Shown here piece by piece: positions 23,918-62,162 of a DNA stretch of 64,000 nt. The first letter of the stretch is position 1, and the number at the start of each line of letters is the position of its first letter. The stretch is from Thermicanus aegyptius DSM 12793 (lineage in GTDB: Bacteria; Bacillota; Bacilli; Thermicanales; Thermicanaceae). Made by a program: the position numbers and the translations under genes. Location of the stretch: NCBI RefSeq assembly GCF_000510645.1, contig NZ_KI783301.1, positions 1,836,420 to 1,900,419 on the forward strand, written 5' to 3'. A model generated the notes under the pieces. That model had not been told where the DNA came from, ran no database searches, and saw nothing but the letters and a program-made list of their open reading frames with translations.

Positions 23918-24072
23918 TCTCTCACCATCTCTTTCCGAAATGTCCTTCTCTTTATCTTCAAAAAAGCATACGGGCATTTTCGATCTGCTACATGATTCAT
24001 ATATTATGTTTCACCCGGTGAGGTGAAATAGAAGAATTTAATAATTTTATATAAAATAATCAATATGTATAT

Positions 24073-31370: not shown

Positions 31371-34300
31371 TTAAAAAGATGAGTGAAGGGGCAGAGTGAA
31401 GTAGAAGGTGCTGCCCTCTCCCGGCCGGCTCATGACACCGATCGTTCCCCCGTGCCGTTCCACGATCTCCTTGCAGATGCTTAAGCCTAAGCCGTGGGAT
31501 TTCATCCCGTTCCGGGGAGGAGTTCCCGCATAGAAGCGTTCGAAAATGCGGGACTTCTCCTTCTCGCCGATGCCGATGCCTGTGTCGGTCACCTTGACGA
31601 GCAGGTGCCGGTTGGCGTGGGGCATCTCCTCGGTCTGCGCCGAAATCCTGGCCGGTTGGTTCACTTCCTCCTCCACCCACTCGGCTTCCAGGGTGATGCT
31701 TCCCCCTGGGGGGGTAAATTTCACGGCATTATCGATCAGGTTCATCACCACCTGCCCGATGCGATGTTCGTCGGCCTCCACATATCCCTCCCTTTCCGGA
31801 AGGAGATACCGGAAGGCAATCCCCGCCTTCTCCACGGTGAGGGCGGCGCCGTCGCAGAGGGAGCGGAGCAGTTCCTTCGCCTCCAGCCGCCGCATGTTTA
31901 GAGGGACCTCCCTCATTTCCAGCTCGATCAGGTGAAAGAGATCGTCGATCAAACGGTTTAATCCCGTGAGCCGTTCCCGCATCCGTGCAAGATAATGAGC
32001 GGCCTCCTTCACATCCTTCACATGCCCCTCCAGGAGATAGTCCAGATAGCCCTGCACCATGGCCAAAGGGGAACGGAGATCGTGGGAGACGTTATAGAGG
32101 AGATGCTTCCGGAATCGTTCCATCTCCGTAAGGGTGAGATGGGTCTTCTCCAATTGCCCGTATGCCCGCTTCAGCTCTTCGGTCCGCATCCTCACCTCTT
32201 CCTCGATGCGGGCATAGAGGCGCGCCGTCTCGATGGAGATGGCCCCCTGCGCGCTTAATAGCGTCAGCACCTTCATCCCCTCTTCGGGAAAGGCATCGGT
32301 GATGAGATTATTCTCCAGATAGAGGAAGCCGATTCCTTTACCCCGGTGCTGGATGGGAAGGAGGAGAAGGGAGCGGCTGTCATGCTCCCGAAAGTAAGGA
32401 TCGTCTGCGTAAAAGGGTTCTCTCCGGACATCGGCGGCGCGCAAGGGTTTCATGGTGTGGGGCTCTTTCAGCGAAAGGAAGCTTCCGAGAAAGGCGCGGG
32501 GGAGTTCCCCACACTCCGCTAAGGGACGCCCGGGGAGGAGGACCTGGACCGATTGGTTTTCATGTCCGGCCAGGGCGGCCACGATCCACTCCTCCCCATC
32601 TTTCAGGAGGAGGGCGCCCTTCCTCGCCGCTGCGTTTTTCAGATAGATCTCCATGAGCCGCCGGAAGAGGGATTCGGGAACCACCTCTTCCGAGATCGCC
32701 CGGGAGGCTTCCAGCAAGGCGTAAAGGTCGATCTGGGCGGAATCGTGCTTCACAGCGAAAAAATCCTGCGCCTCTTCTTCCAATTGCGATGCCTTCCTCT
32801 CCGCCCCCCACTTCCTGTAGGTGCTGATCGCCTCCCGGAGGAAATAGGAGGCCAGACGGCGGTCTCCCCTCTTCCTGTGGAAGCGGTAGGCCCGTTCCTT
32901 CGCGATCGCTTCATCCTGGATGATGCCGCTCCGTTCCGCTTCCCGAATCGCCCGGTCGTAGAGGAGAAGGGCGGGAATCTCCTTCCCCCGAAGCCGCATC
33001 CATTCCGCCTTTAGGAGGGTGGCCTTGTGGAGATAATTCTCCGGATTTTTCCTGCTCATGCGGGTCAATTTGCCCATGATCCGCCGGAGTTTCTTCCTGT
33101 AATGGCGTTTCTCTTTTCCGAGAGAGGAAGATGCTTTTTCGGCGTACAAGAGTCCCTGGTAGTAGAATATTTCAGGAATGTAGATAAAGATGAGGGATCG
33201 GCCGATCAATTTCTCCCCCTCTTCCGCTTCCCGAAGCGCTTCCTCCTGTTCACCCAGCATGTACATCATCATCAGATAGAAATAGAGATATGGGGGGTAA
33301 ATGGAAGGTGACTTGGCGGGTGGGATGGCGGGTGGGGTTCCCCCCTGCCTCCCGGTGAGATAATCGATGCCGTTCAGCACAAAACGGATGTAATCCTTGC
33401 TTAAAGGAAATTGGAGCTGTTCGTCAAAGATCAGCTCTTCTTCCGCTTCCTGCCTCACCCTCTCTAAGGGGAACCCGCTCAGAAGGAGGGAGATGACCAG
33501 GAAGGAGGAGGTCGCCCCGGCGAGGGAGAAATAATCCGACTTCACGGTAAACTCTTTCGCTTTCTTCAAATACTCATAGCTTTCCCGAAAGGGATGGAGC
33601 CAATGGTTAATAAAGACCCCGTAGACGAAGTAGGTCCGGCCCAAAAGGGTATAATCTTCCCTCGATGAGGCCAGCCGGATCGCCAGGCGGCAAAACCGGT
33701 CCCCCTCCTGAAAGTCGCCGAGGCCTGCGCTGAGGAAGAGGGCATAATTATTGCAGGCTAAGACCGACATGTCGCTGTGGCCGTGAAGCATGGTGTAGCG
33801 GATCGCCTTCAGCATCAGGAGGCTCGCCAGATTCTGGTCCCGATGGAAGGCGGGGGAGTTCAGATGAATCAGAAGCTGCATGAGGAGCCGCTCCCTTTCC
33901 ACCATCGGGGGGAGAGCGGGAAGATGCTCCGGCCTGCGCCAGAGTAGGACCGCTTTCGTCTTCACCCATTCCCGAACCACCGCCCATCTGCCGGGCTCGG
34001 CCGGGATCTTCAGGCCGAAAAGGGAGAGGCCGGTAATGCCCGCCTCCGCCGCTTCCCGATAATTCTCCGTATGGGTATGTAAGATGATGAGAAGGTGATA
34101 GACCCTCTGTTTTTCTTCCAGGGTGGACCCATGGGCCAGCGCCTCCTGAAAGAGGGCCTGCCCCTCCTCTTCCTCACCCAGGAGTATCGTTCCCTCCCCC
34201 AGTTCCAAGGCGAGCTCCATCGTGAGGGAGCGGTGAGGTTCTTCCCAACGATGGCCCGGGAGCAGCTCCCATCCGATCCGGAAAAACGTGACCGATTCTT

Positions 34301-36734
34301 CCAGGGCCGCCGCCCTCTTCGCCCGCCGTCCCGCCTCCAGGTTGAACCGGGCCAGTTCCAGGCGCTCCTCCTCCTTCACGATTCCTCTTCTTCCTGCGTT
34401 TAAATGGAGGATGGCTTCGTACCGCCGCTCCCCTTTTCCCTCCCCGGCGGTGAGGAGGAGCCTGCCGATCATTCGATGGATCTCTTCCCTCCTCTCCTCT
34501 TCCAAGAGGGAATAGACCACCTGGCGGATCCGGTCATGGAGGAACCGGTAGGTGGATTGAGTTTCTCCGCTTTCAGGAGAGTGCACGGGATGAATGATCC
34601 CCCCTTCGATCGCCTCTAAGAGGCGTTCTTCCACCTCCTTCACTCCTTCCCCCAGCGCGGAGGCAAGGAGCCCCACATCAAAACGAAAGCCGATGCAGGC
34701 CGCCGTCTTCAGCGCTTCCAAGGCGGCGGGAGAAAGGCGCTCCACCCGCCTGCCGATGAGGGTGAGAAGGTCATCCCCCACCGCGAGGGACTCCCACGCC
34801 ACATGGGTCGCCCTCCATCCCCTCCCCCTTTCATCATAGGAGAGAAGCCCGTTCTGATAAAGATTCTCCAGAATCTGGATGATGTAGAGGGGGTTCCCGT
34901 CGGTCAGTTTCTTCACCCCGCGGGCGAGGGAATGAGATTCCTCCTCCTTGCAATGAAGCGTCTCGGCCACCAGTCTCCCGGTCTCCTCCAGCGTAAGCGG
35001 AGAGAGGGGGACCGGCAGGAGGGGAAGGGATTCTTTCTTCCCTACCTCGATCAGGCGGAGGAGGGGATGCTCCGGCGCAAGCTCATTCTCCCTGGCGGCC
35101 CCGAGGAGAAGGAGGGGGATTCCCTTCCCGTTCCGGAGAAGATGTTCCAGCAGATGGAGGGTGGCGGCGTCGGCCCATTGGAGGTCGTCGAGGAAGAGGA
35201 CCAGGGGAGCCTCGGGCCGGGCGAGGAGGGAGAAGAGGGCTTGGAAGGCGAGATGAATCTTCTGCTGGCGCTCCTTCGGGGAGAGGTCGCTCGCCGCTTG
35301 ATTGGTAAATGGCCTTTCTCCCTGATCCGCCGAAGGGCTTCCTGCCCAAGGATCTTCGCCGCGGGATCGATGCGCAAAACGGGAGGAGCCGGAGAGGGCA
35401 CGAAGGCGTTCCCCCAGTTCAGGGAGATCCTCCAGGAAAACATCCAGGTAGCCCCCCAATCTGCTCTGCAAAATGCGAAGTTCCTCCACCGCCGGCTTCC
35501 TCGTCTCCCCCGCCTGCCCCCCCTCATCCATGAGCCGATCCAGCAGCCCGACGAGGGCCCGAAGGAGAGGTTCATAGGGGGAATGTCCTTTATACGGGTC
35601 AAATTTGCCCTCCAGGTAGACTCCCCTCTCCATCGCCAAGGGGGCGACGGTTTTCCAGACTAAGGAAGATTTCCCCACCCCGGCCATGCCGGTGAGGAGA
35701 AGCATCCTCACCCCTTTCTCGCCTGCTTCACGGTAGGCGGAGAGGAGGAGGTCCCTCTCCCTCTCCCTGCCATACAGTCGGCCGGGAAGGGAAAAATGGA
35801 GTCGGCGATCCTCCGCTCCTAGGGGGAAGGAAGAGATTCTTCCCTCCTCCTCCAAGAGGAGCTTCATCCGTTCCAGATCTTTATAAAGCCCCCAGGCGCT
35901 CTGATAGCGATCCTCCGGTTCTTTGGCCAAAAGCTTCAGCACCATCTCGGCTAGGGCGTGGGGAAGATGGGGCACCCGCTCCGTTGGAGGAAGGGGCGGG
36001 ACGGCCAGGTGCGCATAGGCGTATCCGGGATAATCCTCCCGCTGAAACGGAGGCTCCCCCGTTAAGAGTTCATAGAAGAGAGCCCCTGCGGAGTAAAGGT
36101 CGCTCCGTTCATCGACGCTCCGCTCGATCCTCCCCGTCTCTTCCGGGGAGAGATAGGGCCAGGCGCTCTCCGGGATACGGGATTCCCGAAAGGAAGCCGC
36201 CCCTCTCGTGATGCGAGCCGCCGTCCCGAATCCCCCTACCTTCAGCTCATCCATCGGCAGGGAGACATAAAGGTTGCCGGGCCGGATTCCCCTGTGCAGG
36301 AAGCCCATCTTATGCAGGATATGCAAAGCCCTGGCCAGAGGGAGGGCGAGGGCGAAAAAGGTGGAAATGGTCAAGGGTTCCCCCTTTTTCAAGAAGAGGG
36401 AGAGGGGGAGCTTCCCCTCCTCTTCGTAGATGAAATAGGGGAGCCCTTTATGCCAAACCAGCCTTTTCGGGAGATAAAATCCCCCTTCCCGGGGCTCTGC
36501 CGGTCCGTCCGTCGGAGAGAGGCTCTCTTTGTGGGGATTGCTTTGCAGTGCCGTGCCGGTCTTTTCTTCCCGGAGGAATCCTTCGATTTCCTTCGGGGTA
36601 GGTTCCGTGAGCCAACCCCTCACCAAGACCGGCCGTTTCGTCCCCTTCTCCCGCCCCTGCCAGATCCCTTCTTTCCCCTCCCTGAGGATGAGCCGGTCCA
36701 ACGTATATTCGGGCAACGCGATTGGATCGATCAT
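31371..36734 (-). CDS. Giant hybrid sensor: pseudokinase - AAA ATPase - GAF - histidine kinase
   Basis: The 1787-residue protein has the architecture known from cyanobacteria, myxobacteria and some Bacillales: Ser/Thr-kinase-like domain (1-300), AAA/NACHT-like ATPase (320-620; Walker A GMAGVGKSS, Walker B LFLDDLQWAD), a long helical TPR-like region (650-1250), GAF (about 1290-1460), then HisKA with VSHDLRSP (phospho-His 1551) and HATPase (NLIDNAVKF, DTGIGIG, GLGLSI). The kinase-like domain lacks key residues: HRD reads HRG (G149), DFG reads GFG (G168), and the VAIK lysine position reads VLVRGW. It has no membrane segment, so sensing is cytoplasmic. AAGGAGG precedes the ATG, nine bases after the response-regulator gene. 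Confidence 0.93.
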   Translation of the reverse strand: MIDPIALPEYTLDRLILREGKEGIWQGREKGTKRPVLVRGWLTEPTPKEIEGFLREEKTGTALQSNPHKESLSPTDGPAEPREGGFYLPKRLVWHKGLPYFIYEEEGKLPLSLFLKKGEPLTISTFFALALPLARALHILHKMGFLHRGIRPGNLYVSLPMDELKVGGFGTAARITRGAASFRESRIPESAWPYLSPEETGRIERSVDERSDLYSAGALFYELLTGEPPFQREDYPGYAYAHLAVPPLPPTERVPHLPHALAEMVLKLLAKEPEDRYQSAWGLYKDLERMKLLLEEEGRISSFPLGAEDRRLHFSLPGRLYGRERERDLLLSAYREAGEKGVRMLLLTGMAGVGKSSLVWKTVAPLAMERGVYLEGKFDPYKGHSPYEPLLRALVGLLDRLMDEGGQAGETRKPAVEELRILQSRLGGYLDVFLEDLPELGERLRALSGSSRFAHRSRGEDPWAGSPSADQGERPFTNQAASDLSPKERQQKIHLAFQALFSLLARPEAPLVLFLDDLQWADAATLHLLEHLLRNGKGIPLLLLGAARENELAPEHPLLRLIEVGKKESLPLLPVPLSPLTLEETGRLVAETLHCKEEESHSLARGVKKLTDGNPLYIIQILENLYQNGLLSYDERGRGWRATHVAWESLAVGDDLLTLIGRRVERLSPAALEALKTAACIGFRFDVGLLASALGEGVKEVEERLLEAIEGGIIHPVHSPESGETQSTYRFLHDRIRQVVYSLLEEERREEIHRMIGRLLLTAGEGKGERRYEAILHLNAGRRGIVKEEERLELARFNLEAGRRAKRAAALEESVTFFRIGWELLPGHRWEEPHRSLTMELALELGEGTILLGEEEEGQALFQEALAHGSTLEEKQRVYHLLIILHTHTENYREAAEAGITGLSLFGLKIPAEPGRWAVVREWVKTKAVLLWRRPEHLPALPPMVERERLLMQLLIHLNSPAFHRDQNLASLLMLKAIRYTMLHGHSDMSVLACNNYALFLSAGLGDFQEGDRFCRLAIRLASSREDYTLLGRTYFVYGVFINHWLHPFRESYEYLKKAKEFTVKSDYFSLAGATSSFLVISLLLSGFPLERVRQEAEEELIFDEQLQFPLSKDYIRFVLNGIDYLTGRQGGTPPAIPPAKSPSIYPPYLYFYLMMMYMLGEQEEALREAEEGEKLIGRSLIFIYIPEIFYYQGLLYAEKASSSLGKEKRHYRKKLRRIMGKLTRMSRKNPENYLHKATLLKAEWMRLRGKEIPALLLYDRAIREAERSGIIQDEAIAKERAYRFHRKRGDRRLASYFLREAISTYRKWGAERKASQLEEEAQDFFAVKHDSAQIDLYALLEASRAISEEVVPESLFRRLMEIYLKNAAARKGALLLKDGEEWIVAALAGHENQSVQVLLPGRPLAECGELPRAFLGSFLSLKEPHTMKPLRAADVRREPFYADDPYFREHDSRSLLLLPIQHRGKGIGFLYLENNLITDAFPEEGMKVLTLLSAQGAISIETARLYARIEEEVRMRTEELKRAYGQLEKTHLTLTEMERFRKHLLYNVSHDLRSPLAMVQGYLDYLLEGHVKDVKEAAHYLARMRERLTGLNRLIDDLFHLIELEMREVPLNMRRLEAKELLRSLCDGAALTVEKAGIAFRYLLPEREGYVEADEHRIGQVVMNLIDNAVKFTPPGGSITLEAEWVEEEVNQPARISAQTEEMPHANRHLLVKVTDTGIGIGEKEKSRIFERFYAGTPPRNGMKSHGLGLSICKEIVERHGGTIGVMSRPGEGSTFYFTLPLHSSF

Positions 36735-36743
36735 GGCTCCTCC

Positions 36744-37463
36744 TTATTCCCGGTTCAGCTTATATCCCCAACCCCGGACGGTGAGGATAAAACGGGGGTT
36801 CTCCGGATCGGTCTCGATTTTCCTGCGAAGGTTGCTGATATGTACGTTAATCGTCCGGGTATCTCCCAAACTCTCTTTTCCCCAGAGGGCTTGGTAGAGT
36901 TCCTCCTGGCTAAAGATTTGTTCCGGGTGCCGGGCCAGGTAGACGAGAATTTGAAATTCCTTCGCCGAGAGGGGGATGGGATTGCCGTTCTTCATGACGA
37001 GATTTCGGATCAGATCAATCTCCAACTCTCCGAAGCGGAGGTAGGTCCCGTTCTCTTCCTTCTCCTGATCCTTCTCCTCGATTTTTTCCCGGAGGATGCG
37101 GTTTCGGCGGAGATGGGCCCGGATCCGCACCAGAAGTTCCGCCATGCTGAAAGGTTTGGTGACGTAATCATCCCCACCGGTGCTGAGGCCCATGATCTTA
37201 TTCATTTCATCCTGGCGGGCGCTGAGGAAGATAATAGGAACGTCGGTAAATTTGCGCAAGGATTGGCAGAGTTCAATCCCGTCCACGCCCGGCATCACCA
37301 CATCGAGGATGATGAGATCCGGGTTGTAGGTTTTGGCTGCGGCCACCACCTTTTCCCCTTCCGTTACGGAAAAGGTCTCATACCCGTTTTGGGTCAGGTA
37401 CAACTTGATCAATTCTTGAATATCCGGATCGTCGTCCACGATCATGATCCGTTCTCTGGCCAT
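36744..37463 (-). CDS. OmpR/PhoB-type response regulator
   Basis: The 239-residue regulator has a receiver domain (1-120) with the acidic pocket near IVDDDPDIQ, the phosphoacceptor Asp in LIILDVVMPGVDGIE, and TKPFS with the conserved Lys. A winged-helix DNA-binding domain (140-238) ends RRKIETDPENPRFILTVRGW. It directly precedes the giant sensor kinase gene and is the obvious partner. Targets cannot be read, but the next genes upstream encode SLH surface proteins. AGGAG lies before the ATG. Confidence 0.95.
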   Translation of the reverse strand: MARERIMIVDDDPDIQELIKLYLTQNGYETFSVTEGEKVVAAAKTYNPDLIILDVVMPGVDGIELCQSLRKFTDVPIIFLSARQDEMNKIMGLSTGGDDYVTKPFSMAELLVRIRAHLRRNRILREKIEEKDQEKEENGTYLRFGELEIDLIRNLVMKNGNPIPLSAKEFQILVYLARHPEQIFSQEELYQALWGKESLGDTRTINVHISNLRRKIETDPENPRFILTVRGWGYKLNRE

Positions 37464-37724: not shown

Positions 37725-40700
37725 TTACTTCCCGATCAGGGCTAGCGCCTTCAGGATGACGGAGGTGGCTTCGGCCCGGGTGGTGTAGGCGGCCGGATCA
37801 AAGCGGTTGCCGCTGCGTCCTTGGATGAGGCCGTTTTCGACGGCGGCTGCCACCGCCCCTTTCGCCCACGCCGGAATCCGATTGGCATCGGAGAAGGTGA
37901 GCATCGCTCCGTCATTGGCCGGAAGTCCCAATGCCCTTACGATCATGACGGCCATCTCCACGCGGGAAATCGGGTTGTTTGCCTTGAAGGTGCCGTCGCT
38001 ATACCCATTGATGACTCCTTTCTCGACGGCTCCGGCCACATAGGTGCGGGACCATGTGGGGATCGACGGAAGGTCGTTGAAGGAAAGATTTCCTTCATCT
38101 CCGGCAAGTCCCAGGGCTTTGCCGATCATGACGGCAAACTCTGCCCGGGTGACCATCCCGTCGGGATGGAAGGTGTTGTTGGGATAGCCATTGACGAAGC
38201 CTTTCGCAACGCCTTCCATGATGGCCGCTTCCGCCCAGTGGCCTTTTACATCCGTGAACGATGGAACGGAAGGTTTGCCTTCGCCTTCTTTCTTCACTTC
38301 GGCGAAGACGGCAAAGTAGGTAAAGTGGTTTACTTCCAGGGTAATGCGGTTTTCCTTTGCCTCGCCTCCCAGCTTCACCCATTTCTTCTGCACTTCGTCG
38401 AAGTAATAGACCCCTACCGGGTGGTCCGCCGCTTTCGCCGTGTCGTAGGCGAACGTTAGGCGAACCGGATGGTTGAACGTTACAGCCTTGTCCGTGGTGA
38501 TATCGTAGATGGGGCTTACCAGGAGCAGTTCGTCTTCCGGCGGGAGGGCGGGGAAAGTATCCACTTTTTCGACCGTGACCTCCACCGTCCTGTCGAACGT
38601 CCCCTTCGGCACCTCCACGGTGGCTTCATCGTTTAGGGATACGGTGCCGCGATCGCCGCTCACGATGGTCTGGGTGGCCTTCTGAGAGGTGTTGGTTCCG
38701 CCGCCTGCAGAGCCGCCTCCGCCGATGATGCTTCCTCCACCGCCGCCACCGCCTCCGCCGCCACCGGTACCGCCTCCGCCGCTTCCTCCGCCGCCGCTAC
38801 CACCGCCGCTGTTCGGAGGTGTGGGCTGTTTCACGATGGTTAAGGTTCCGCTGATGGTGGGGAGGTTGACTCCCGATGCGACGGTGATCTCTTGGATCGT
38901 TCCCTTCGATCCTTCGATCACCACGCCGCTCATGTTCACCGCGATCTGGTTCAGGCTGCCGGTGGTGTTGATGGTGAACTTACTTGCCTGGTTCACCGTG
39001 GCGGTTCCCGTCAGGGAGGTGCTGCCGTCCAAGACGATATGGACATTCTTTTTGTTCACTTCCATATCGTTCAGGATGGAGTCGGTGAAGGTGACGGTAT
39101 CGGGCGCCCCGCCGTTTACGATCACTTTCCCTTGTACGGTGACATTCCGGGCGGTGAAATCTTGGTCCACCTGTTCGTCAATCACCAGGTTGCCGGTGAT
39201 GGTTACGTTTTTCAGGATGGCATTTTCGCCGGTTACCGTCAGATTCCCTTGGATGGTGACGTTTTGCAGGGTGATGTTATCTCCCGTGAGGGTGACGTTG
39301 CCGGTCACCTTGGCCGTCTTACCGTCGGTTGGCCCGTAGGTGGTCTCCCCATTATCTAAGACGACATCCCCCGTATAGTCGCTGCCGTTTAGAAGCGCCG
39401 CCTCTCCTGGGGTATCGACGCGGACGGTCGCCTGGGAAACCTCGCTTTCGTTCCCCGCTTGATCCACCGTCTTCGCTTCGATCAGGGTGGTGCCGCTTGC
39501 GGTGATGGAGATCTTGTCCGTTTCGCTATAGGGCTGCCATGCGGTCCAGTCTTTATCCCCCGTCTTGGTCCGGTAGAGGACTTTGTCCACTTCGCCCAGG
39601 GGATCGCTTCCTGCCGTGAGGGTGACTAGGACGTTTCCGGAGGACCATCCCGATGGTGCCTGTATCGCAGGCGCTGTCGGCTTCGTCCGGTCGATCTTCA
39701 CCAGGATGGAGTTGGATAGATCGCCGATATTTCCTGCGTTGTCCAAGGTGCGGGCGATCACTTCATGAATACCTTCGGTGTCAAGGAGGATTCTTACTCC
39801 AGGATCGTAGTCGGTCCAGGTGCCGTCCGCGCCGATCTTGTATTGGCTCTTCGCCACACCGCTTAAGTTCGGTTGATCGACGCCATCGGTGAGGGTGAGG
39901 ATCACGGCCTCTTTCGTCCAGACCCCCGGGGTGTAGGAACCACTCTCTAGAGTGGGAGACGTAGGCTTCGTCCGGTCGATCCGGACGGTGTAGGCGGCGG
40001 CAGCGCTCTCGTTGCCCACCTGATCCACCGTCTTCACGGAAACAACGGTTTCCCCTTCCCCATCGACGGGAATGGTAAATTTGCCTGTTCCGACGACCGT
40101 CTGTTCCGATCCATTCCCTACGGTATATTTCGTCCCGTAGGTCCCGCTTCCATTATCCGTTCCGGGGGTGATCTCCACCAAAACGCTTCCCGGCTGGTTG
40201 GTCCAGCCATAGACGGCGGAGGTTACAACGGCCGGTGGAGGCGCGGTCTTGTCGATCTTGACGGTGACGGGGCCTGCCTCGGCGCCGATATTTCCTGCGT
40301 TGTCCAGGGTGCGGGCGTAGATCTCAAAGCTGCCGTCCTGGTTTAACGGGATTCCATCCGTTGGATAGTCGGTCCAGGTGCCGTCTGCGCCGATCTTGTA
40401 TTGGCTCTTCGCTACACCGCTTAGGCCCGGTTGATCGGTTCCGTCGGTGATGGTGACGGTCACGGCCTCTTTCGTCCAGGTTCCGGGCGCATAGCCGCCG
40501 GTGCCGATCGTCGGTTGAGACGGAGCCGTCTTGTCGATCCGGACGATGTAGGTGACAGGATCGCTTTCGTTCCCCGCTTCATCCCGGGTCACGGCGGTTA
40601 CGGTGGTCTCTCCTTCGGTATTGAAATCATACCGAATCGATGGCGTTGCCTTCGGGAGAATGGAGGATTGGCTTCCCCAACCGGTTACCGTTTCCTTGAT

Positions 40701-43700
40701 GCCGCTTAACGCATCGGTGCCATGCGTCACCGTGAGCTCTACCTGCTGATTGGCCCAGCCGGTCGGCGTGAGCGTCAGAGTGGGCGATGCCGGTTTGGTC
40801 TTATCGATGTTGATGTGCAGGGGACCTGCTTCCACACTCGAGTTGCCGGCCTTGTCCAAGGTTCTGGCGTAGAGGAGATATTGGCCTTCCTGATTGAAGA
40901 GGATGCCACCTGACGCAGGATCATAGTCGGTCCAGGCGCCTTCTGCGCCGATCTTGTATTGGCTCTTCGCCACACCGCTTAAGTTATCGGTTCCATCGGT
41001 CAGCGTGACGGTCACGTCGCCGTTCGTCCATTTGCCGTCGGGATAAGAGCCTCCGCCGTATGCGGCGTTGATCGCCGGCGCATTGGGGCGAGTCGTGTCG
41101 ATCTTCACCGTATAGGAAGCGAGGCTTTCATTGCCCACCTGGTCCACGGTGCGGACACGGATGTTGGCCACGCCGTTGATGTCGGCATCTTTTCCTGCGA
41201 TGGAGATGCTGCCGTCCGCGCCGCTGAAGGTGACCCAATTTCCTCCATTCACCTGATACTCCGTCCTGGCCACGCCGCTTCCGCCGTCGGTTCCGCCGGT
41301 GACATCAAGAAGGACGGGAACGGTGTTGGTCCATGCTCCATCAGATACCGTGGATGCAACGGAGGGTGCGGTAGGCGATTTGTTATCGATCTTGACGGCG
41401 ACGGAAGTCTCCGTCTCGTTCCCGGCATTGTCTTTCGTCCGGGCGTAGAGGGTGAGTGAGCCTTCCGCATCGGCGGGAAGGTCGGCGGTTAGATTCCCTC
41501 CCGTATAGGGAGTCCAGGTACCGCTTGCTCCCACCTTATAAACGGTTTCCGCCACTCCGCTTAAATCATCGGGGCCCTGGGTGATGGTGAAGGAGATCGG
41601 ACCCTTCTGCCATCCGGTCGGGGCATTGATGACGGGAGCGGGGGGCGCGGTCTTGTCGATCCTGATCGTAACGGGAGCGGAAGATGCGACGGTATTTCCC
41701 GCTGCGTCCGTAACCCTGGCGTATATCTCCTGCACTCCCGGGGTGGAGACGGTTACCTCTCCGGTGTACTCGGTCCAGGTGCCGTTCGCGCCGATCTTAT
41801 ACTCCAGCTTGGCGATGCCGCTTCGGTCGTCGGAAGCTCCCTCGAGGGTGAAGGTTACATCCCGGTTGGTCCAGCCGGTTGTGCTCGGCATCACGGTGGG
41901 CGGAACGGGAGCGGTCTTATCGATCTTCACCTGGCCGGTGGCAAGGGAGCTTTCATTCCCGGCGTTGTCCACCGTCTTGGCCTGGATGGCGGTGATCCCT
42001 TCCGTGGCTACGGAGAAAGGAGTGGTATACGGGGTCCAGGTTTTCCCGCCGTCGGTGCTGTAGAGGGTCTCCTTCACTCCGCTTTTCCCATAGCCTAGCG
42101 TGTCGGTTCCTGGGTTGAGGGTGACGGTCACATCCCCATTCGTCCAGTTTTCCGTACTCGGCTGGATGGAAGGGGGGGTCGGAGCGGTGATGTCGATCTT
42201 CATGGTGTGTTCCGACACAGGGCTTAGATTTCCTGCTTTATCCATGGTGATCGCCTTAATCGTCACCGAACCTTCAACGCCTTCCGGCAAGGTGATGTTT
42301 CCTCCGGTGGGAACATCGGTCCATTGCTCCACATAGCCATTCACCATATATTGGCTCTTTAACACTCCGCTGGACTTGGTTTCATCCGTCCCGTCACTGC
42401 CGTCGGTAATGGTGAAGGAACGCTGATTGGTCCATCCGTCGGGAGCATTGATGGTTGGAGCACCGGGAGGAGTCCGGTCGATCAGAACGACACGGTTGGC
42501 CGTTCCGCTGATGTTGCCGGCTCCGTCGATGGCTTGGGCATAGATGGTGACGCTCCCCTCGTATGGGTCAGGTACGTTGATGCCTACCGCGGGATCGGAG
42601 GGGACATAGTCGATCCATGCTCCATTTACATCGAAGCGATATTGAAGCTTGGCCACGCCGCTGTTTTTCCCGGTCGGAAGGTCTCCCTGATCGGCCAGAG
42701 TGAAGGCGACTTCGTTTGCCCAAGAGGTAGTGCTGGGAGTAATCAGCGGAAGCTTGGGAGCGGTCTTATCATACCGGGCGATGACCGGGGTGCTAGGATC
42801 CCCCACATTTCCGGCATTGTCGATCGCCCGGGCATAGACCATCGTCTCTCCTTCTTGATTGATGGAGACGGCGGTTCCGGGATAATCGACCCAGTTGGTG
42901 CCGTCGAAGCTGTACTGGTATCCTTTGATGCCGCTTCCCCCGTCATCCGTCCCCCCGGTTATGGTGAAGGCGGGGATGGTATTGCTCCAGCCGTAGGTGA
43001 TGCCGGAGACGGTGGGAGGGGTCGGTTTTACCCGATCGATCTGGACTGTGATGATGACCGGTTGGCTCTCGTTCCCGGCTTTGTCCACCCCGATGGCCCA
43101 AATCGTCGTCGTGCCGGCATTGGTTACTTTGAGGGGACTTTTCGGATCATAGGGTAGAAACGATGCGCCATCCCAGCTGTACCAGCTTTTGTCATAGCCG
43201 CTTAAGCCCTGCTGATCCGTCCCGTCCGTCAGGGTAACGGTTACTTCCGGCGCATTGGTCCAATCGGAGGCGGGCGATTTGACGAACGTGGGCGCACTTG
43301 GTGCGGAGGTATCCACCTTCACCGTCGCCGTGGCGCTCTCCCCCACGTTCCCTGCCTTGTCCACCGTATGGGCTTCGATGGTGTGGAGCCCATCGGACGT
43401 TACCTGGAAGGGCGTGGAATAGGTGGTCCATGGGCCATTGTCGATCCGGTATTCCGTCTTTTCCACTCCGCTGCCGTTCTCGTATCCATCGGAAATCGTG
43501 ACGGTTACCGGATCCTTCGTCCATTCCGCCGTGGACGGGGTAACCGTCGGTTTCCCGGGAGCGGTGGCATCCACGCGGATGACGTGTTCCGTCCAATTTC
43601 CCCATGCTTCCCATTGGTCCTTCACCCGCACATAGAGATAATGAGTCCCGTCGCTAAGGTCTTGTCCAAGCGTATAGGGAACGGTACTTCCGCTCGCCCA

Positions 43701-44510
43701 ATCGCCTGTGATCTCTGTCTTCGATGAGATACTCGGGTTTATTTTCGCGTCGGACAAGACGATCTGGTACGCCCTCAATCGGTCTCCGTTCGGGTCACTT
43801 ACCGTAAAGGAGATGGGAGGGCGTTTCTCCTTTTGCCACACGGTGGAATCCGGAGAAAAATTGCCGGGCGGATCGGGTGAATCATTGTAGGTGGGGCGGA
43901 GTAAATAAGGATCGGCAGAAGTTCCTGAACCGCTCGCCACTTCCAGCCCGTTCTGCAAAGTGACGGCGGGACGCACCCCATAGGAGGTGGTGCTCATCTT
44001 CTCCATCACCTTTCCGTCGGTACCTACATACCAAGCCTTCGATCCGTTTGAGGGGGTGGCGGTCCAGTAGGAGGAGGTCCCCTTAAGAACCAACGTGGAG
44101 GATAACGTCCCTTTCGGGGTATAGACCACCCCGCCCACGGTGTTGTCGTAGGCGTAGGTCGCTTCCGTCACCGTGACGATTTCATCCAGGGTGAGAAGGC
44201 TCTCTCCCGAAGGATCTACCAATGTGGTGGGGAACCCCCCCACAAAGGTATCCGCCGCGTTCTGGGCGGTGGACCAAGTATTCGCCGGAGGTATTCCCTC
44301 ATAGAGAAGCCGTCTGGAACTCACGTCGAAGATCCGAAACTTCTCCCACTTTCCATCCGAGGTCTGAAGGGAAACATAATCGCCTACGGCGAGGGAGCCG
44401 AATGCCGTCCCTTGCGCCTCGGTTTTGGCCACCGATATGCCGTACATGGCGGCCAGGCTCACGGTAAGCAAGGCAACCAGCAGGCCTTTCCAAAAAATAT
44501 TCAATTTCAT
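37725..44510 (-). CDS. Giant SLH surface protein with about 15 Ig-like modules
   Basis: The 2261-residue secreted protein starts with a signal peptide (GLLVALLTVSLAAMYGISVA). An N-terminal domain of about 200 residues is followed by about 15 modules of 85-100 residues. Each opens with IDKTAP or a variant and ends in a YARTLDNAGN-like stretch, as in bacterial Ig-like repeats of adhesins. Next come a beta-helix-like region rich in NVTIxGNL repeats, a poly-Gly linker (coded by 38690-38830), a ZU5-like domain (VEVPKGTFDRTVEVTVEK), and three SLH repeats (FTDVKGHWAEAAIMEGVAKG and two more). It is probably an S-layer or cell-surface adhesin. GGAGGAAG precedes the ATG. The modules lie in tandem and could recombine. 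Confidence 0.92.
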   Translation of the reverse strand: MKLNIFWKGLLVALLTVSLAAMYGISVAKTEAQGTAFGSLAVGDYVSLQTSDGKWEKFRIFDVSSRRLLYEGIPPANTWSTAQNAADTFVGGFPTTLVDPSGESLLTLDEIVTVTEATYAYDNTVGGVVYTPKGTLSSTLVLKGTSSYWTATPSNGSKAWYVGTDGKVMEKMSTTSYGVRPAVTLQNGLEVASGSGTSADPYLLRPTYNDSPDPPGNFSPDSTVWQKEKRPPISFTVSDPNGDRLRAYQIVLSDAKINPSISSKTEITGDWASGSTVPYTLGQDLSDGTHYLYVRVKDQWEAWGNWTEHVIRVDATAPGKPTVTPSTAEWTKDPVTVTISDGYENGSGVEKTEYRIDNGPWTTYSTPFQVTSDGLHTIEAHTVDKAGNVGESATATVKVDTSAPSAPTFVKSPASDWTNAPEVTVTLTDGTDQQGLSGYDKSWYSWDGASFLPYDPKSPLKVTNAGTTTIWAIGVDKAGNESQPVIITVQIDRVKPTPPTVSGITYGWSNTIPAFTITGGTDDGGSGIKGYQYSFDGTNWVDYPGTAVSINQEGETMVYARAIDNAGNVGDPSTPVIARYDKTAPKLPLITPSTTSWANEVAFTLADQGDLPTGKNSGVAKLQYRFDVNGAWIDYVPSDPAVGINVPDPYEGSVTIYAQAIDGAGNISGTANRVVLIDRTPPGAPTINAPDGWTNQRSFTITDGSDGTDETKSSGVLKSQYMVNGYVEQWTDVPTGGNITLPEGVEGSVTIKAITMDKAGNLSPVSEHTMKIDITAPTPPSIQPSTENWTNGDVTVTLNPGTDTLGYGKSGVKETLYSTDGGKTWTPYTTPFSVATEGITAIQAKTVDNAGNESSLATGQVKIDKTAPVPPTVMPSTTGWTNRDVTFTLEGASDDRSGIAKLEYKIGANGTWTEYTGEVTVSTPGVQEIYARVTDAAGNTVASSAPVTIRIDKTAPPAPVINAPTGWQKGPISFTITQGPDDLSGVAETVYKVGASGTWTPYTGGNLTADLPADAEGSLTLYARTKDNAGNETETSVAVKIDNKSPTAPSVASTVSDGAWTNTVPVLLDVTGGTDGGSGVARTEYQVNGGNWVTFSGADGSISIAGKDADINGVANIRVRTVDQVGNESLASYTVKIDTTRPNAPAINAAYGGGSYPDGKWTNGDVTVTLTDGTDNLSGVAKSQYKIGAEGAWTDYDPASGGILFNQEGQYLLYARTLDKAGNSSVEAGPLHINIDKTKPASPTLTLTPTGWANQQVELTVTHGTDALSGIKETVTGWGSQSSILPKATPSIRYDFNTEGETTVTAVTRDEAGNESDPVTYIVRIDKTAPSQPTIGTGGYAPGTWTKEAVTVTITDGTDQPGLSGVAKSQYKIGADGTWTDYPTDGIPLNQDGSFEIYARTLDNAGNIGAEAGPVTVKIDKTAPPPAVVTSAVYGWTNQPGSVLVEITPGTDNGSGTYGTKYTVGNGSEQTVVGTGKFTIPVDGEGETVVSVKTVDQVGNESAAAAYTVRIDRTKPTSPTLESGSYTPGVWTKEAVILTLTDGVDQPNLSGVAKSQYKIGADGTWTDYDPGVRILLDTEGIHEVIARTLDNAGNIGDLSNSILVKIDRTKPTAPAIQAPSGWSSGNVLVTLTAGSDPLGEVDKVLYRTKTGDKDWTAWQPYSETDKISITASGTTLIEAKTVDQAGNESEVSQATVRVDTPGEAALLNGSDYTGDVVLDNGETTYGPTDGKTAKVTGNVTLTGDNITLQNVTIQGNLTVTGENAILKNVTITGNLVIDEQVDQDFTARNVTVQGKVIVNGGAPDTVTFTDSILNDMEVNKKNVHIVLDGSTSLTGTATVNQASKFTINTTGSLNQIAVNMSGVVIEGSKGTIQEITVASGVNLPTISGTLTIVKQPTPPNSGGGSGGGGSGGGGTGGGGGGGGGGGSIIGGGGSAGGGTNTSQKATQTIVSGDRGTVSLNDEATVEVPKGTFDRTVEVTVEKVDTFPALPPEDELLLVSPIYDITTDKAVTFNHPVRLTFAYDTAKAADHPVGVYYFDEVQKKWVKLGGEAKENRITLEVNHFTYFAVFAEVKKEGEGKPSVPSFTDVKGHWAEAAIMEGVAKGFVNGYPNNTFHPDGMVTRAEFAVMIGKALGLAGDEGNLSFNDLPSIPTWSRTYVAGAVEKGVINGYSDGTFKANNPISRVEMAVMIVRALGLPANDGAMLTFSDANRIPAWAKGAVAAAVENGLIQGRSGNRFDPAAYTTRAEATSVILKALALIGK

Positions 44511-44585
44511 TTTCTTCCTCCTATCCCTTCTTCCTATTGAAAAATGGATCCCATGAGAGCGATATTTCCCATGCAGAGGCTCATA

Positions 44586-44645
44586 TCAACATCGCCACCT
44601 GCGATATAAGAATCGAACCGGGCGGATCTTCGGCAGAGTCTTCAT
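44586..44645 (-). CDS. 19-codon leader ORF upstream of the giant SLH gene
   Basis: ATG at 44645 is preceded by a near-perfect ribosome site (AAAGGAGGTGAGGAGC) and encodes MKTLPKIRPVRFLYRRWRC, ending 75 bases before the SLH start codon. Five of 19 residues are Arg. The ribosome site and start codon lie in the loop of a hairpin formed by GGCAGAGTC (44632-44640) and GACTCTGCC (44666-44674). The strong site suggests that it is translated, perhaps as an attenuation-type leader peptide. No homologue is known to me. Confidence 0.5.
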   Translation of the reverse strand: MKTLPKIRPVRFLYRRWRC

Positions 44646-44732
44646 GCTCCTCACCTCCTTTAAAGGACTCTGCCCGTTTCGCCAAAACCAAAGGCTTGTT
44701 GAAAATACGGATAGTTGGCTCGCCTTTGGTTT
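44632..44732 (-). promoter_or_regulatory. Two-hairpin structured leader of the giant SLH gene
   Basis: The minus-strand leader contains an 11-bp perfect inverted repeat, AAACCAAAGGC (44685-44695) with GCCTTTGGTTT (44722-44732), around a 26-base loop. A 9-bp stem, GGCAGAGTC/GACTCTGCC (44632-44640 and 44666-44674), follows, and its loop holds the leader ORF ribosome site and ATG plus the palindrome CCTTTAAAGG (44657-44666). Neither stem carries a T-run, so they are not terminators. A translational control element or unknown riboswitch is likely. Confidence 0.6.
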
Positions 44733-45083
44733 GTCGGAGAGAATATGAGCTTTGTAGGAAAAAGGGAGTCGTAGAAAGAAAAATGGTTTGCATTTGTACA
44801 GATATAGCATAGCACATCCATCTGAAGTATTATTCTAAATATTCCTTCTTTAGTTTAATTTTTGTTTGAAAGGTTCATCTTTTTTTTGTGAATTGAATCT
44901 TTGTTTTATGAATCGTTAAGCCTGTTAAAGGTTTATTAACCTCGGTAAGAAATCGATTGAACTGAGAATATAACGGTAAGATGCGGGCAAGCCTTCGGTA
45001 AGGTCTATCGGATCGATGAGAAATGAAGATGATCTATTTCCTCCTCGATGCATTAAATGATATAGCGGTGATTCCTATAGGCA

Positions 45084-45112
45084 GGCTCTCGCGCGAAAGA
45101 GAGCCTTTTTTG
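45084..45112 (+). terminator. Orphan intrinsic terminator upstream of the riboswitch
   Basis: GGCTCTC (45084-45090) pairs with GAGAGCC (45099-45105) around GCGCGAAA, followed by six T. No coding gene on the plus strand ends here; the adjacent gene to the left is divergent. It implies a short transcript beginning in roughly 44830-45060, either a small RNA or a prematurely stopped leader. No known RNA consensus was recognised in that stretch, and no gene. Confidence 0.7.
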
Positions 45113-45175
45113 TCCCTTTGCGACATTTTTTTGAAAGAACCCAAAGATACCCTATGATATTCCATCGACCTAACG

Positions 45176-45189: not shown

Positions 45190-45290
45190 GCGATGATTCG
45201 ACAAAGGCAAAATCATCGAAAGATGATGACGCAAAGCTACAGGGGCTAAGGTCTTGACGACGATGCCAGCCAGTTGCCGGTATAAGAGGG
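45190..45290 (+). ncRNA. c-di-GMP-I (GEMM) riboswitch aptamer
   Basis: The sequence carries the class I c-di-GMP consensus in order: AAAGGCAAAATCATC, a GAAA tetraloop-bearing P1b hairpin (ATCATCGAAAGATGAT), GACGCAAAGC, a central GGGGCTAAGG, and ATGCCAGCCAGTTGCCG. An intrinsic terminator follows directly. Class I aptamers bind cyclic di-GMP and control motility, matrix and surface genes. The gene controlled is the secreted-protein gene starting at 45431. Confidence 0.93.
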
Positions 45291-45325
45291 ATGAAAACCT
45301 ATCCGGCAGGATAGGTTTTTTCATC
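45291..45325 (+). terminator. Expression-platform terminator of the c-di-GMP riboswitch
   Basis: AACCTATCC pairs with GGATAGGTT around GGCA, followed by a T-run; the stem can extend through GATGAAA/TTTCATC. It abuts the aptamer and precedes the coding region by about 105 bases, the layout of a transcriptional riboswitch. Whether ligand switches it on or off cannot be read by eye. Confidence 0.88.
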
Positions 45326-45430: not shown

Positions 45431-46213
45431 ATGAGTAAAAAAGTGATGTCGGTGTTGTCGCTGTTTGTCGCGCTCTCTCTCATCCTCGCAAGTTCGATCT
45501 TTGCGGCTCCGTATGGGACAAGCACTCCGGCCAAAGGGGCGTTCTCCCTGGCGAACCCAATGGATGATGGGAAAAATAAGGGGGACGAAAGCGCATACCA
45601 GTCGAACACCGAAGAGGGAGATCAAGGAGAAATCGATCAAGAAGATCAGCCGGATCAAGAAAATGCCAACCAAGAGTTAAACCAATCGGATGATGGCAAC
45701 TCCAATGATACGAATGGAACGGATAAGGAAAAAAAGAAGAAAAAAGAGAAGGAAGCGAATGAAAATGCCCGCCAGGGCCTCTTAAACGCCCTTACCCACC
45801 TGAAGGGAACTCCGGCCGAGAAAGTGATCTTAGACCTGCTCAATCTGGAAGATGTAGATTTGGAGGAATTGCTCAGCCAGCTCCAAGCATATCTTGGGGA
45901 AAATGGGCAAACGAGCGTTACGGAGGATACCTATGGAGAGAATGTTCAGACGCAAACCCGACTTCAACTTGAGGCGCTGACGAAAGAACAACTCTCTGCC
46001 TTCGCCGATGCGTTGGGAGCCAAATTGGAGCTGCAGGCACAAGTAAAAGAACAGACCAAATTGAAGAAACAGCTGCGGGAAATTTATGAGAAGATGGGCG
46101 AATCGAAGAAAGCGCGTGATGTCCAATTATCCGTCGTTCAAGAGGTGTATCAAAATCTGGACGAGTATGAAAAACTGGGAGAACTATACGAAAAATACAG
46201 AATAAAGGCGTGA
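45431..46213 (+). CDS. Secreted protein with acidic linker, N-terminal part of a stalk-domain protein
   Basis: The signal peptide (KKVMSVLSLFVALSLILASS, cleavage near IFAAPYG) is followed by a long acidic Asp/Glu/Gln/Asn-rich linker (about 40-105), then a helical domain (about 110-260) rich in Leu, Lys and Glu. AAGGAGGG precedes the ATG. The frame ends at TGA 46213, but a copper-amine-oxidase-type domain begins in the -1 frame with a GTGA overlap. In comparable Bacillales proteins both parts are joined, so this may be the front half of one protein. Expression is under the c-di-GMP-I riboswitch upstream. Its role is unknown, probably in matrix or surface. Confidence 0.8.
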   Translation: MSKKVMSVLSLFVALSLILASSIFAAPYGTSTPAKGAFSLANPMDDGKNKGDESAYQSNTEEGDQGEIDQEDQPDQENANQELNQSDDGNSNDTNGTDKEKKKKKEKEANENARQGLLNALTHLKGTPAEKVILDLLNLEDVDLEELLSQLQAYLGENGQTSVTEDTYGENVQTQTRLQLEALTKEQLSAFADALGAKLELQAQVKEQTKLKKQLREIYEKMGESKKARDVQLSVVQEVYQNLDEYEKLGELYEKYRIKA

Positions 46214-46865: not shown

Positions 46866-49800
46866 TTATTGTTTTTCTCCTAGATTCAATGCCCGGAGCA
46901 GGAAGACGACGGTCTCGGCACGGGTGGTTTTTCCGTTCGGGGCGAGCAGCCTATCGCCTCTCCCGTTCATGAGTCCGTTGGACCAGGTGGTGAAGAGGTA
47001 ATCCTTCGCCCATCCCGGTATTTCCGCATGATCGGAGAATCTTGTGAGATCGCCTTCCGTGCCGGGAACAAGCTTCAGCGCACGAACGAGGATGGCCGCC
47101 ATCTCACTGCGGGTGATGCTTCGATCCGGTCGGAAGGTGAGATCGGGATACCCTTCGATCCAGCCCGCCCCATAGGCACGGGTCAGAGCATCCTTTGTCC
47201 ACTCGGGAATCTGATTCAGGTCCGTAAAGGGAAGTTCCTTCGATCCCTCCGGCAGGCAGAAGGCATTGGCCAACATGAGGACGAATTCCGCCCGGGTGAT
47301 GGAGCGGTCCGGTTGGAATGTCCCGTCGGTATAGCCGGTAACGATTCCCTCCGCCGCCCCTTGGTTGATCTCTTTTTCAGCCCAATGTCCGGAGATATCG
47401 GTAAACTGGGGCGGCTTTTCCGGCTTCGTCCGGCAGCAGGCGCCCTGAGAGAGAATCTCGTCGGAATATGCAGGGCTCACATTTCCCGCACCATCCCGGA
47501 ACCGGACATACACCTTTTTCAATCCCGGACCGGGAGGTAAGGTGTAGGCCTTGGTGTGGGAATAAGGCTCCCACTCGGTCCAATGCTCCCCATCATTGGA
47601 GAAACGCATCTCCTTCACCCCGGTTCCCCAGTCGGTCGCCGTCAGGGTCAGGGTGACCCGGCAGGTGGAGGTGCTTTCCTCTCCCCCATTGATGAGGATG
47701 CTGCCCGTTGGGGGCGTGATATCCCGGTTTCCGGAACTACCCGATCCCGGATTCGGGGCGGGGGGAGCCTCACGCTTGATGATGGTAAAGCTCTTTTCCG
47801 CGTTGAATTCCGTTCCGGGGATCCGTGCGGTCATTGTAACGGTGCCTTGACTCCCTGGGATGTTCTCCGGAGCCGTGTAGGTGAGGGTGTAATTCCCTGC
47901 GGCATCGGTGTAGACATCCTTCACCACCGCAGGTGGACTCCCGAATCCACCGCCTCCGTACACTTCCAAGGTGACGGGGATATGGGCAAGTCCCAGGCCG
48001 TCCTTCCCGTAGACCTGGCCGGTTATGGTGGTCGATTCACCGGTTTCTAAGGTATCTTTCGCCGCGGAAAGGGTTAATCCGGCCAGCTTCAGCCAATTGG
48101 AACGATGGAGAAGCCATGTGTCTTGGTAAACCACCCACTCTTCCTGCGGATTCCATCCCTCTCCTCCAAAGAGAAGAAAACTTTGGTTTGCCGGTGAGTA
48201 GGCCATGCCGGCTCCTACCCGGGGAGAAGGATTTGGGCTTGTGAAGGCGGGAATGATGGTCGGAACGCTGCCGTCTCCGGGATATAGACTTGTCCATTCC
48301 CTCTTCTCCGGGTCCCACATCCATAGATCGTTTAATACCTGTTCATTCTCACCAAATCCTCCAAAGAGGAAAGTCTTTCCCGTAAAGGGATCGTAGGCGA
48401 GGGTCGCCCCATAACGCGCGGATGGGGTTTTTTCTGGAGTGGTCTCCACTTTTGTCCACTTATCCCCATCGAAGAGCCAGGTCTCGTTGGAGGTTAAACC
48501 AGCTTTCGTAAATCCCCCGAAGAGGAGGATCTTCTTCCCGTCAAAAGCGAGGGAGGCGCCATATCTAGGGGAAGGGTCCCCTTCCCGTGGATCGACCCGG
48601 TTCCATGCTTCACCGTTCCAGACCCAAGTGTCTCCCAGGGTATCAATCTCTCCATTGCCTCCAAACATGACCACCTGCCCTGTTAGGGGATTATAAGCCA
48701 TCGCCGCACTGTAGCGGCCAGGAGGGGTAGCACCCGGTTGAGTGTCTATCTTTCGCCAATCTTCCCCATCCCAAATCCAGGTATCGTCGTAATAATGTTC
48801 GATATCTTCAACGCTATCGTAATTGTACCCACCGAACAAAAGGACGTCCCTTCCGTTGAAGGCCATAGCGGCTGAATGGCGTGGAGATGGGGAAGTGGAA
48901 GGTCTCTTCTTAATCCATTCTACTCCATTCCATGCCCAGGTATCCCCCATTGTTTCCCAATAATCTTCGGTTCCTCCAAAGAGGAGAACCTGGCCGTTCT
49001 TTTCATCAGTGGCCATTGCTGCAGAAGATCGGGGAGAAGGGGAAGGAGGGTCGATCTCTTCCCACAAATCGGAGACACTATCGTACTTCCATAGATCGTT
49101 AAGAGAATATTTTCCGCCAAACAAAAGCAGGTTGCCGTCAGGACCCTCGGTAAAGAAGGCTTCCGCTCTTCCTGTTAGGTCTCTTACGTTCTCCGCAACA
49201 AGGGTCCAAGTCCGCTCCTTACCATCCCATGCCCATAGATCGTTGAGAAAATTGCCGTTACTGTCTTCTCCGCCAAAGAGATAGATTTTTCCGCTCTTCG
49301 GATCATACGACATGGCGGCACCGGCCCGGGGAGATGGACCATAAACCTCGCCGGTCACGTTCTGCCATCCATTTCCGTCCCACAGCCAGGTGTCCCCCAA
49401 GGGATTCTCATATGGACTATACCAATACTGTTTTGTACTAAATCCACCAAAGAGAAGCACATTCCCGTTCTCCGGATCGTAAACCATGGAAGCGACAGTC
49501 CGGGCTGGCGGGTTCTTCCCTCCGGGATCGGTTTTATTCGTCCACATCTGAGTCTCCGGATCCCAGACCCAGGTTTCGTCTAGGAATGTATCACTACGTA
49601 TTCCGCCAAACAGGAGGAGTCCTCCAGACGGATCGGTGGCCACCGCTTCATCATATCGGGCAGGGGGGATCGGGGAGTATACACTTCGAGCGACCTCGGT
49701 CCACCCCTGCTCATCCATCTGCCATATGGCCGATTCGGTTTCAGGTGGGGTCCCGTACCATTTTGTCTTTCCTCCATATAACAGGATCTTCCCCGCTTTT

Positions 49801-50111
49801 GGGGAGTAAACCAGCCTGGCGTTGCTCAGATCACCATCCGGTTTAACATAGCCTAAATTCGTCCATTCCGTTCCGTCCCATGCATAGGTAATATCGTTAC
49901 GAGCCTCTCCACCTTCATGAAACAGCGCGATAACCCTGTTCGAAATCGGATCGTAAACCAGCGATCCTTCCGATGTGGCCGGCCAGACAAAGGCCAATTC
50001 CTCCCACCAATAGGGTTTTTCCGTATCACCTCCTTGCGCTCCTGCCAGGGATGGCATCAACCCTAGGAGCATCATGATGAGGAGGAAGAGCGAAATCCCT
50101 CTCTTCCCCAA
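46866..50111 (-). CDS. Secreted Kelch-repeat protein with Ig-like domain and SLH triplet
   Basis: The 1081-residue protein has a signal peptide (GISLFLLIMMLLGLMPSLAG, cleavage near GAQG). There are about 11 Kelch-type blades (residues 50-670), recognisable by repeated LLFGG or VMFGG followed by a W-x-W-D or TWVWD turn. A Big_1-like Ig domain (about 690-790, TGQVYGKDGLGLAHIPVTLE), an Ig-like module (DITPPTGSILINGGEEST) and three SLH repeats (FTDISGHWAEKEINQGAAEG and two more) follow. The start is TTG at 50111; a GGAGGG lies upstream at long spacing. It is probably a surface protein displaying a beta-propeller. Confidence 0.9.
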   Translation of the reverse strand: MGKRGISLFLLIMMLLGLMPSLAGAQGGDTEKPYWWEELAFVWPATSEGSLVYDPISNRVIALFHEGGEARNDITYAWDGTEWTNLGYVKPDGDLSNARLVYSPKAGKILLYGGKTKWYGTPPETESAIWQMDEQGWTEVARSVYSPIPPARYDEAVATDPSGGLLLFGGIRSDTFLDETWVWDPETQMWTNKTDPGGKNPPARTVASMVYDPENGNVLLFGGFSTKQYWYSPYENPLGDTWLWDGNGWQNVTGEVYGPSPRAGAAMSYDPKSGKIYLFGGEDSNGNFLNDLWAWDGKERTWTLVAENVRDLTGRAEAFFTEGPDGNLLLFGGKYSLNDLWKYDSVSDLWEEIDPPSPSPRSSAAMATDEKNGQVLLFGGTEDYWETMGDTWAWNGVEWIKKRPSTSPSPRHSAAMAFNGRDVLLFGGYNYDSVEDIEHYYDDTWIWDGEDWRKIDTQPGATPPGRYSAAMAYNPLTGQVVMFGGNGEIDTLGDTWVWNGEAWNRVDPREGDPSPRYGASLAFDGKKILLFGGFTKAGLTSNETWLFDGDKWTKVETTPEKTPSARYGATLAYDPFTGKTFLFGGFGENEQVLNDLWMWDPEKREWTSLYPGDGSVPTIIPAFTSPNPSPRVGAGMAYSPANQSFLLFGGEGWNPQEEWVVYQDTWLLHRSNWLKLAGLTLSAAKDTLETGESTTITGQVYGKDGLGLAHIPVTLEVYGGGGFGSPPAVVKDVYTDAAGNYTLTYTAPENIPGSQGTVTMTARIPGTEFNAEKSFTIIKREAPPAPNPGSGSSGNRDITPPTGSILINGGEESTSTCRVTLTLTATDWGTGVKEMRFSNDGEHWTEWEPYSHTKAYTLPPGPGLKKVYVRFRDGAGNVSPAYSDEILSQGACCRTKPEKPPQFTDISGHWAEKEINQGAAEGIVTGYTDGTFQPDRSITRAEFVLMLANAFCLPEGSKELPFTDLNQIPEWTKDALTRAYGAGWIEGYPDLTFRPDRSITRSEMAAILVRALKLVPGTEGDLTRFSDHAEIPGWAKDYLFTTWSNGLMNGRGDRLLAPNGKTTRAETVVFLLRALNLGEKQ

Positions 50112-62043: not shown

Positions 62044-62162
62044 TTTCTTATCCAGAGTGGTGGAGGGACTGGCCCGATGAAACCCGGCAACCGTTCTTGG
62101 CGAAGCCAAGAAAAGGTGCCAATTCCTGCAAGGCGGAAAGACCTGTCTTGAGAGATAAGAAG
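62044..62162 (+). ncRNA. SAM-I (S-box) riboswitch
   Basis: The S-box consensus is plain: CTTATCCAGAGTGGTGGAG, GGCCCGATGAAACCCGGCAA, AAGGTGCCAATTCCTGC, and a closing AGAGATAAG. It binds S-adenosylmethionine and turns off methionine genes when SAM is plentiful. The structure is followed by a terminator and metQ. Confidence 0.97.

Follow-up and report, generated by a model that had tools for sequence, protein, structure and literature searches.

A very strong ribosome-binding site with a 19-codon open reading frame in the leader of a giant SLH-protein gene, probably an upstream ORF or mRNA stabiliser of a known kind

Here, we analysed the leader of a gene for a 2261-residue surface protein with SLH domains, which is read from the minus strand of a 64,000-nucleotide stretch of Thermicanus aegyptius DSM 12793 DNA (the window), and found that this leader carries an exceptionally strong ribosome-binding site, SD1, in front of a mini-ORF, sORF1 (Table 1). 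The leader is probably a cis-acting upstream ORF or an mRNA stabiliser, in either case of a type that has been described. Our preferred reading, to which we assign a probability of roughly 0.4, is a cis-acting upstream-ORF leader in which the loading and passage of ribosomes, and not the peptide, determine how well the SLH mRNA is translated or how stable it is.

Table 1. Features of the leader and of the gene behind it, in the order of transcription (positions within the window).
Feature	Position	Strand	Remarks
Possible extended -10 element	44806-44814	-	TGcTATGCT; putative
Pyrimidine-rich 5' stretch	44754-44791	-	potential pairing partner of the SLH ribosome site (44537-44501)
Hairpin H1	44685-44732	-	11 perfect pairs (44685-44695/44722-44732), 26-nt loop
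Hairpin H2	44632-44674	-	9 perfect pairs (44632-44640/44666-44674), 25-nt loop
SD1, AAAGGAGGTGA	44651-44661	-	11-nt match to the 16S anti-SD tail
sORF1, MKTLPKIRPVRFLYRRWRC	44586-44645	-	19 codons; ATG at 44645, stop TGA at 44586
sORF2, MSLCMGNIALMGSIFQ	44534-44584	-	16 codons; putatively translated
SD of the SLH gene, AGGAGG	44517-44522	-	predicted to be mostly paired
Gene of the 2261-residue surface protein	37725-44510	-	signal peptide and domain matches

The evidence that carries this reading is the initiation site itself, whose SD1 is located 141 nt 5' of the SLH ATG. SD1 followed by 4-8 nt and an ATG occurs at 7 sites in the 3.66-Mb genome, compared with 0 sites for the reversed pattern used as control. 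Because the six other sites open frames of 62, 88, 122, 207, 471 and >500 codons, sites of this type can be taken as genuine starts, and the sORF1 site is the sole one of the seven that opens a mini-ORF. The combination of SD1 and ATG is beyond chance and ranks among the best ribosome-binding sites of the genome, and we count these statistics in favour of the upstream-ORF reading. The 10-bp palindrome CCTTTAAAGG of the H2 loop includes the AAAGG of SD1, and CCTTTAAAGGAGGTGA recurs 5' of an ATG in another genome (L089), at a chance match of our leader model; the palindrome thus needs no separate explanation.

The peptide presents a different picture. The 19-codon ORF had been reported in a preliminary description of this DNA to contain five Arg and two Lys, which is exact. 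The Arg codons are, in order, CGC, CGA, CGC, AGG and CGA, and the presence of five of them, two being CGA (3.9 per 1000 codons in the genome; AGG, 9.1 per 1000) and none the preferred CGG, was counted for the upstream-ORF reading. Five Arg in 18 codons is a level, however, that 11% of the genome's stop-free non-coding windows attain, compared with 1% of its coding windows, and the Arg richness is not clearly beyond chance for a non-coding frame. The codon usage (-0.62 bits per codon, compared with -0.13 for the 5th percentile of real coding windows) is typical for non-coding frames. Both values were counted against the upstream-ORF reading. The start of sORF1 looks selected, its peptide does not. 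Of the earlier suggestion of control by a leader peptide, an upstream ORF with a cis role, well supported at its initiation site, remains the best reading, whereas the argument from Arg richness is weakened, as such richness is common in random frames. The upstream-ORF reading and the stabiliser reading discussed below both hold the peptide to be unimportant, which fits its codon usage. In a different frame, sORF1 is overlapped by a longer open frame of 71 codons (MQTIFLSTTPFFLQ..., 44579-44793, minus strand); the ATG of this longer frame, at 44793, lies near the presumed transcript start and has no SD, and its codon score of -0.09 lies between coding and non-coding.

The ordinary Arg content and the non-coding-like codon usage of sORF1 also favour an incidental origin, in which SD1 and sORF1 would be either a tiny ORF on its own or what is left of a gene start, situated by accident in the intergenic region, and the stems would be products of chance. 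The statistics of the stems lend this explanation further support. We confirmed to the base both the 11-bp perfect inverted repeat (H1) and the 9-bp stem (H2) whose loop holds SD1, the sORF1 ATG and the palindrome; H1 folds with -14.3 kcal/mol at 37 C and -8.9 at 55 C, and H2 with -16.4 kcal/mol at 37 C (one flanking base included per side). An 11-bp stem arises in only 2/300 shuffles of the 290-nt leader and is notable on that scale, yet its choice from the whole window is not significant: 0-2 perfect 11-bp repeats are expected by chance per 64 kb and 3 are seen, so that a scan of the whole window is expected to return about one. Perfect 9-bp repeats are common. An incidental origin is opposed by the stability of the whole leader, which folds from the presumed start at 44800 with z = -3.2 (0/100 shuffles as stable), a value that also counts for the upstream-ORF reading, and by the well-spaced perfect SD, which would be hard to retain absent selection. 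We consider an incidental origin unlikely. A shorter 251-nt piece of the leader that lacks the 5' end gave z = -2.3. Taken together, the leader is moderately structured, and its hairpins are not clearly beyond chance. An H-type pseudoknot of the H1 loop (GCCA/TGGC) was seen by eye and dismissed, since its 4 bp are too short to count.

How could ribosomes on sORF1 affect a gene whose start lies 75 nt beyond the end of the mini-ORF? The second mini-ORF, sORF2, starts 1 nt past the sORF1 stop (TGATATG) and ends with a TAG 23 nt 5' of the SLH start. A ribosome finishing sORF2 would cover the SLH Shine-Dalgarno sequence, and only there would it be near enough to matter. The spacing of sORF1, sORF2 and the SLH gene counts for the upstream-ORF reading, as does the predicted occlusion of the SLH Shine-Dalgarno sequence, whose mean unpaired probability in the model of the full-leader fold is 0.23 (37-60 C). 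Counted on the other side are the weak SD of sORF2 (AGGTGG) and the behaviour of the fold model under a ribosome, in which a ribosome placed at three positions of sORF1 did not free the SLH Shine-Dalgarno sequence (0.23 unpaired each time). The predicted partner of the SLH ribosome site is the pyrimidine-rich stretch at the 5' end, with 13 contiguous pairs including G-U, plus about 11 others, and -30.8 kcal/mol, an energy that was reached in 5/2000 shuffles. This helix is only suggestive, because its longest run is found in about 3.5% of shuffles (p about 0.035) and the leaders of other SLH genes of the genome give comparable values; such pairing before other SLH genes is a further point against the upstream-ORF reading.

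Based on these elements, we speculate that ribosomes load at SD1 in the H2 loop and translate sORF1, which would open H2, and that after the TGA they may restart at the sORF2 ATG. A ribosome terminating on sORF2 would overlie the SLH Shine-Dalgarno sequence and could thereby be delivered to a partly hidden site, which without ribosome traffic is predicted to stay paired with the pyrimidine-rich 5' end. The SLH output would then track how fast ribosomes initiate on the mini-ORFs and move through them, and slow rare-Arg codons could modulate it. The sequence elements and the non-random SD1 with its ATG are established, whereas the transcription start, the translation of both mini-ORFs, their coupling to the SLH gene and any signal are inferred. 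If upstream-ORF control is true, a structural surface protein would join the few Gram-positive genes set by uORFs, amino-acid supply would be tied to the building of the cell surface, and the leader would offer a simple case of a very strong ribosome site that steers or protects a long mRNA instead of making protein. A two-step relay from sORF1 through sORF2 to the SLH gene, in which pausing at rare Arg codons sets surface-protein synthesis and the SLH site is otherwise locked to the mRNA 5' end, appears quite improbable to us; if true, it would be a nutrient-sensing switch for a surface adhesin in an arrangement not described before.

The preliminary description held that no known family matches this leader, which is too strong a statement, as rbfL (PMC13009471), toiL (PMC12121999) and the strong-SD stabilisers of Bacillus (PMC3997798, PMC4113751) come close. 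In Staphylococcus aureus, the leader peptide rbfL has an extended SD and rare Arg codons that, by slowing ribosomes, control the biofilm regulator rbf; it starts with GUG, has 2 Arg codons and overlaps the rbf ribosome site (PMC13009471). In its sequence, the leader described here resembles rbfL by a short, putatively translated uORF with an extended SD and by rare Arg codons, at which ribosomes may pause; it further shares with it a gene of surface or biofilm life and a Gram-positive host of the Bacilli type. In contrast to rbfL, which overlaps its target site, sORF1 neither overlaps nor abuts the SLH ribosome site and ends 75 nt short of the SLH start, and only sORF2, within 23 nt, reaches that site; moreover, sORF1 has 5 Arg codons instead of 2, and a response of it to Arg is hypothetical. 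In E. coli, the uORF toiL controls a hidden ribosome site of topAI (PMC12121999). In both leaders a uORF lies in a fold that hides the downstream ribosome site, in the SLH leader by prediction, and the position of a ribosome would alter the fold, but toiL itself pairs with the target site, whereas the SLH site is predicted to pair outside the uORF, with the pyrimidine-rich 5' end. Macrolide attenuators of the erm type place hairpins and a leader peptide that has an SD of its own before the regulated ribosome site. The SLH leader likewise has a leader ORF with its own SD and hairpins 5' of the SLH ribosome site; it differs in that no resistance gene lies downstream and that no alternative stem was shown to join the leader ORF and the SLH site.

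In the chief rival of the upstream-ORF reading, the leader would be a 5' stabiliser: SD1, together with H1 and H2, would retain a ribosome or 30S subunit and so block 5'-3' decay of the 6.8-kb structural mRNA by RNase J, and the mini-ORF would be incidental. The STAB-SD of cry3A and the initiation site of hbs are strong-SD 5' stabilisers of Bacillus that act against RNase J (PMC4113751, PMC3997798), and stabilising leaders in Bacilli commonly owe their effect to a strong SD and/or 5' occlusion (PMC3997798, PMC4113751). Like these systems, which belong to mRNAs for highly expressed structural proteins, the SLH leader is long and has a very strong SD, the 11-nt SD1, placed far upstream of the gene; RNase J is encoded in the genome (TIGR00649 match, 693 bits), and no coding selection is visible on the sORF1 peptide. 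Unlike STAB-SD, which directs no initiation, SD1 is followed by a correctly spaced ATG and a 19-codon ORF. The putative 5' end, too, lies about 140 nt upstream of SD1, which speaks against a stabiliser unless the RNA is trimmed. We regard a stabiliser as rather doubtful, though less so than an incidental origin. The leader was assigned to neither rbfL nor STAB-SD, because it fails the overlap with the ribosome site that marks the former and the non-initiation that marks the latter.

Is the leader a member of a wider RNA family? An Rfam scan of the leader, at gathering thresholds and at E<=5, gave no match, the sole nearby one being a divergent c-di-GMP-I riboswitch. A DNA search of its own genome and order and of plasmids and phages returned only the leader itself; the short matches were shared SD sequences. 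We built a covariance model of the two hairpins from the single sequence and ran it on 399 genomes of the class, which yielded only chance-level matches (best non-self E 0.001 per genome) that were driven by the SD and sited at unrelated genes or within coding sequence, and no homologue with covariation was found among these genomes. None of the genome's 21 further SLH genes has a leader that shares a stem or a mini-ORF with it. The lack of a relative was counted against the upstream-ORF reading and for an incidental origin; however, the missing conservation is uninformative, because the genomes compared include no other member of the genus or family, and this weakens it as an argument for incidental origin as well.

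The preliminary description had also proposed an unknown ligand-binding RNA, which finds no support here. The leader is structured, as such an RNA would be, but neither a match at the permissive Rfam threshold nor a relative in the class was found, the stem statistics at window scale are ordinary, the hairpins are simple, with no conserved junction or core, and no expression platform with a terminator is present; we believe this the least probable of all explanations. Scarcely more credible is a leader bound by an RNA-binding protein, for instance CsrA, with the GGA motifs of the H2 loop (AAAGGAGG, GAGGAG) and another in the SLH SD as the sites covered. The csrA gene is encoded in the genome (87.5 bits), but GGA is present in every strong SD. 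CsrA prefers short loops, and the H2 loop measures 25 nt.

The possible extended -10 element would, if we read it correctly, set the transcript start near 44799-44800. On the minus strand we found no promoter with both hexamers and no sigma-70 site with a good -35. The preliminary description noted that neither stem has a terminator T-run; no terminator-like site was found after H1 or H2 or elsewhere between promoter and gene on this strand, and the leader thus holds no intrinsic terminator of the kind used by transcription attenuators (amino-acid leader, T-box). A strong terminator-like hairpin on the plus strand, at 45083-45106, is preceded over roughly 570 bases by no plus-strand gene, and an orphan small RNA may extend from about 44960 to 45113. 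An antisense RNA ending at this hairpin and pairing with the leader or the SLH SD was discarded, as its duplex energies were ordinary compared with shuffles and random genomic pieces.

The surface protein combines a signal peptide and numerous Ig-like repeats (Big_13 and relatives) with a weak DUF6273-like match and three SLH domains at its C-terminus. Its N-terminal 206 residues had no match in 60 relatives, the 399 class genomes and a contig collection of 84,980 species; the N-terminus is an orphan. SLH genes number at least 22 in this genome; one encodes a 1081-aa kelch-repeat protein with three SLH domains (46866-50111, minus strand; TTG start as read here). Downstream of the surface-protein gene, at 31371-37463 on the minus strand, lie genes of an OmpR-type response regulator and of a sensor, 1787 aa long, that combines Ser/Thr kinase, AAA_16, GAF and histidine-kinase domains. 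This sensor is almost without relatives in the 84,980 species (short conserved stretches) and, tried as a handle on the locus, yielded nothing useful.

The surface locus is probably under c-di-GMP control. The c-di-GMP-I riboswitch (45196-45281, plus strand, 78.8 bits) serves the gene divergent to the SLH gene and is followed by an 11-bp hairpin, AAAACCTATCC/GGATAGGTTTT, at 45294-45319; the gene behind it (45431-46213, plus strand) encodes a secreted 260-aa protein with no Pfam match. Elsewhere in the window, Rfam matches mark an epsC (EAR) RNA at 24072-24184 on the minus strand and a SAM riboswitch at 62045-62161 on the plus strand.
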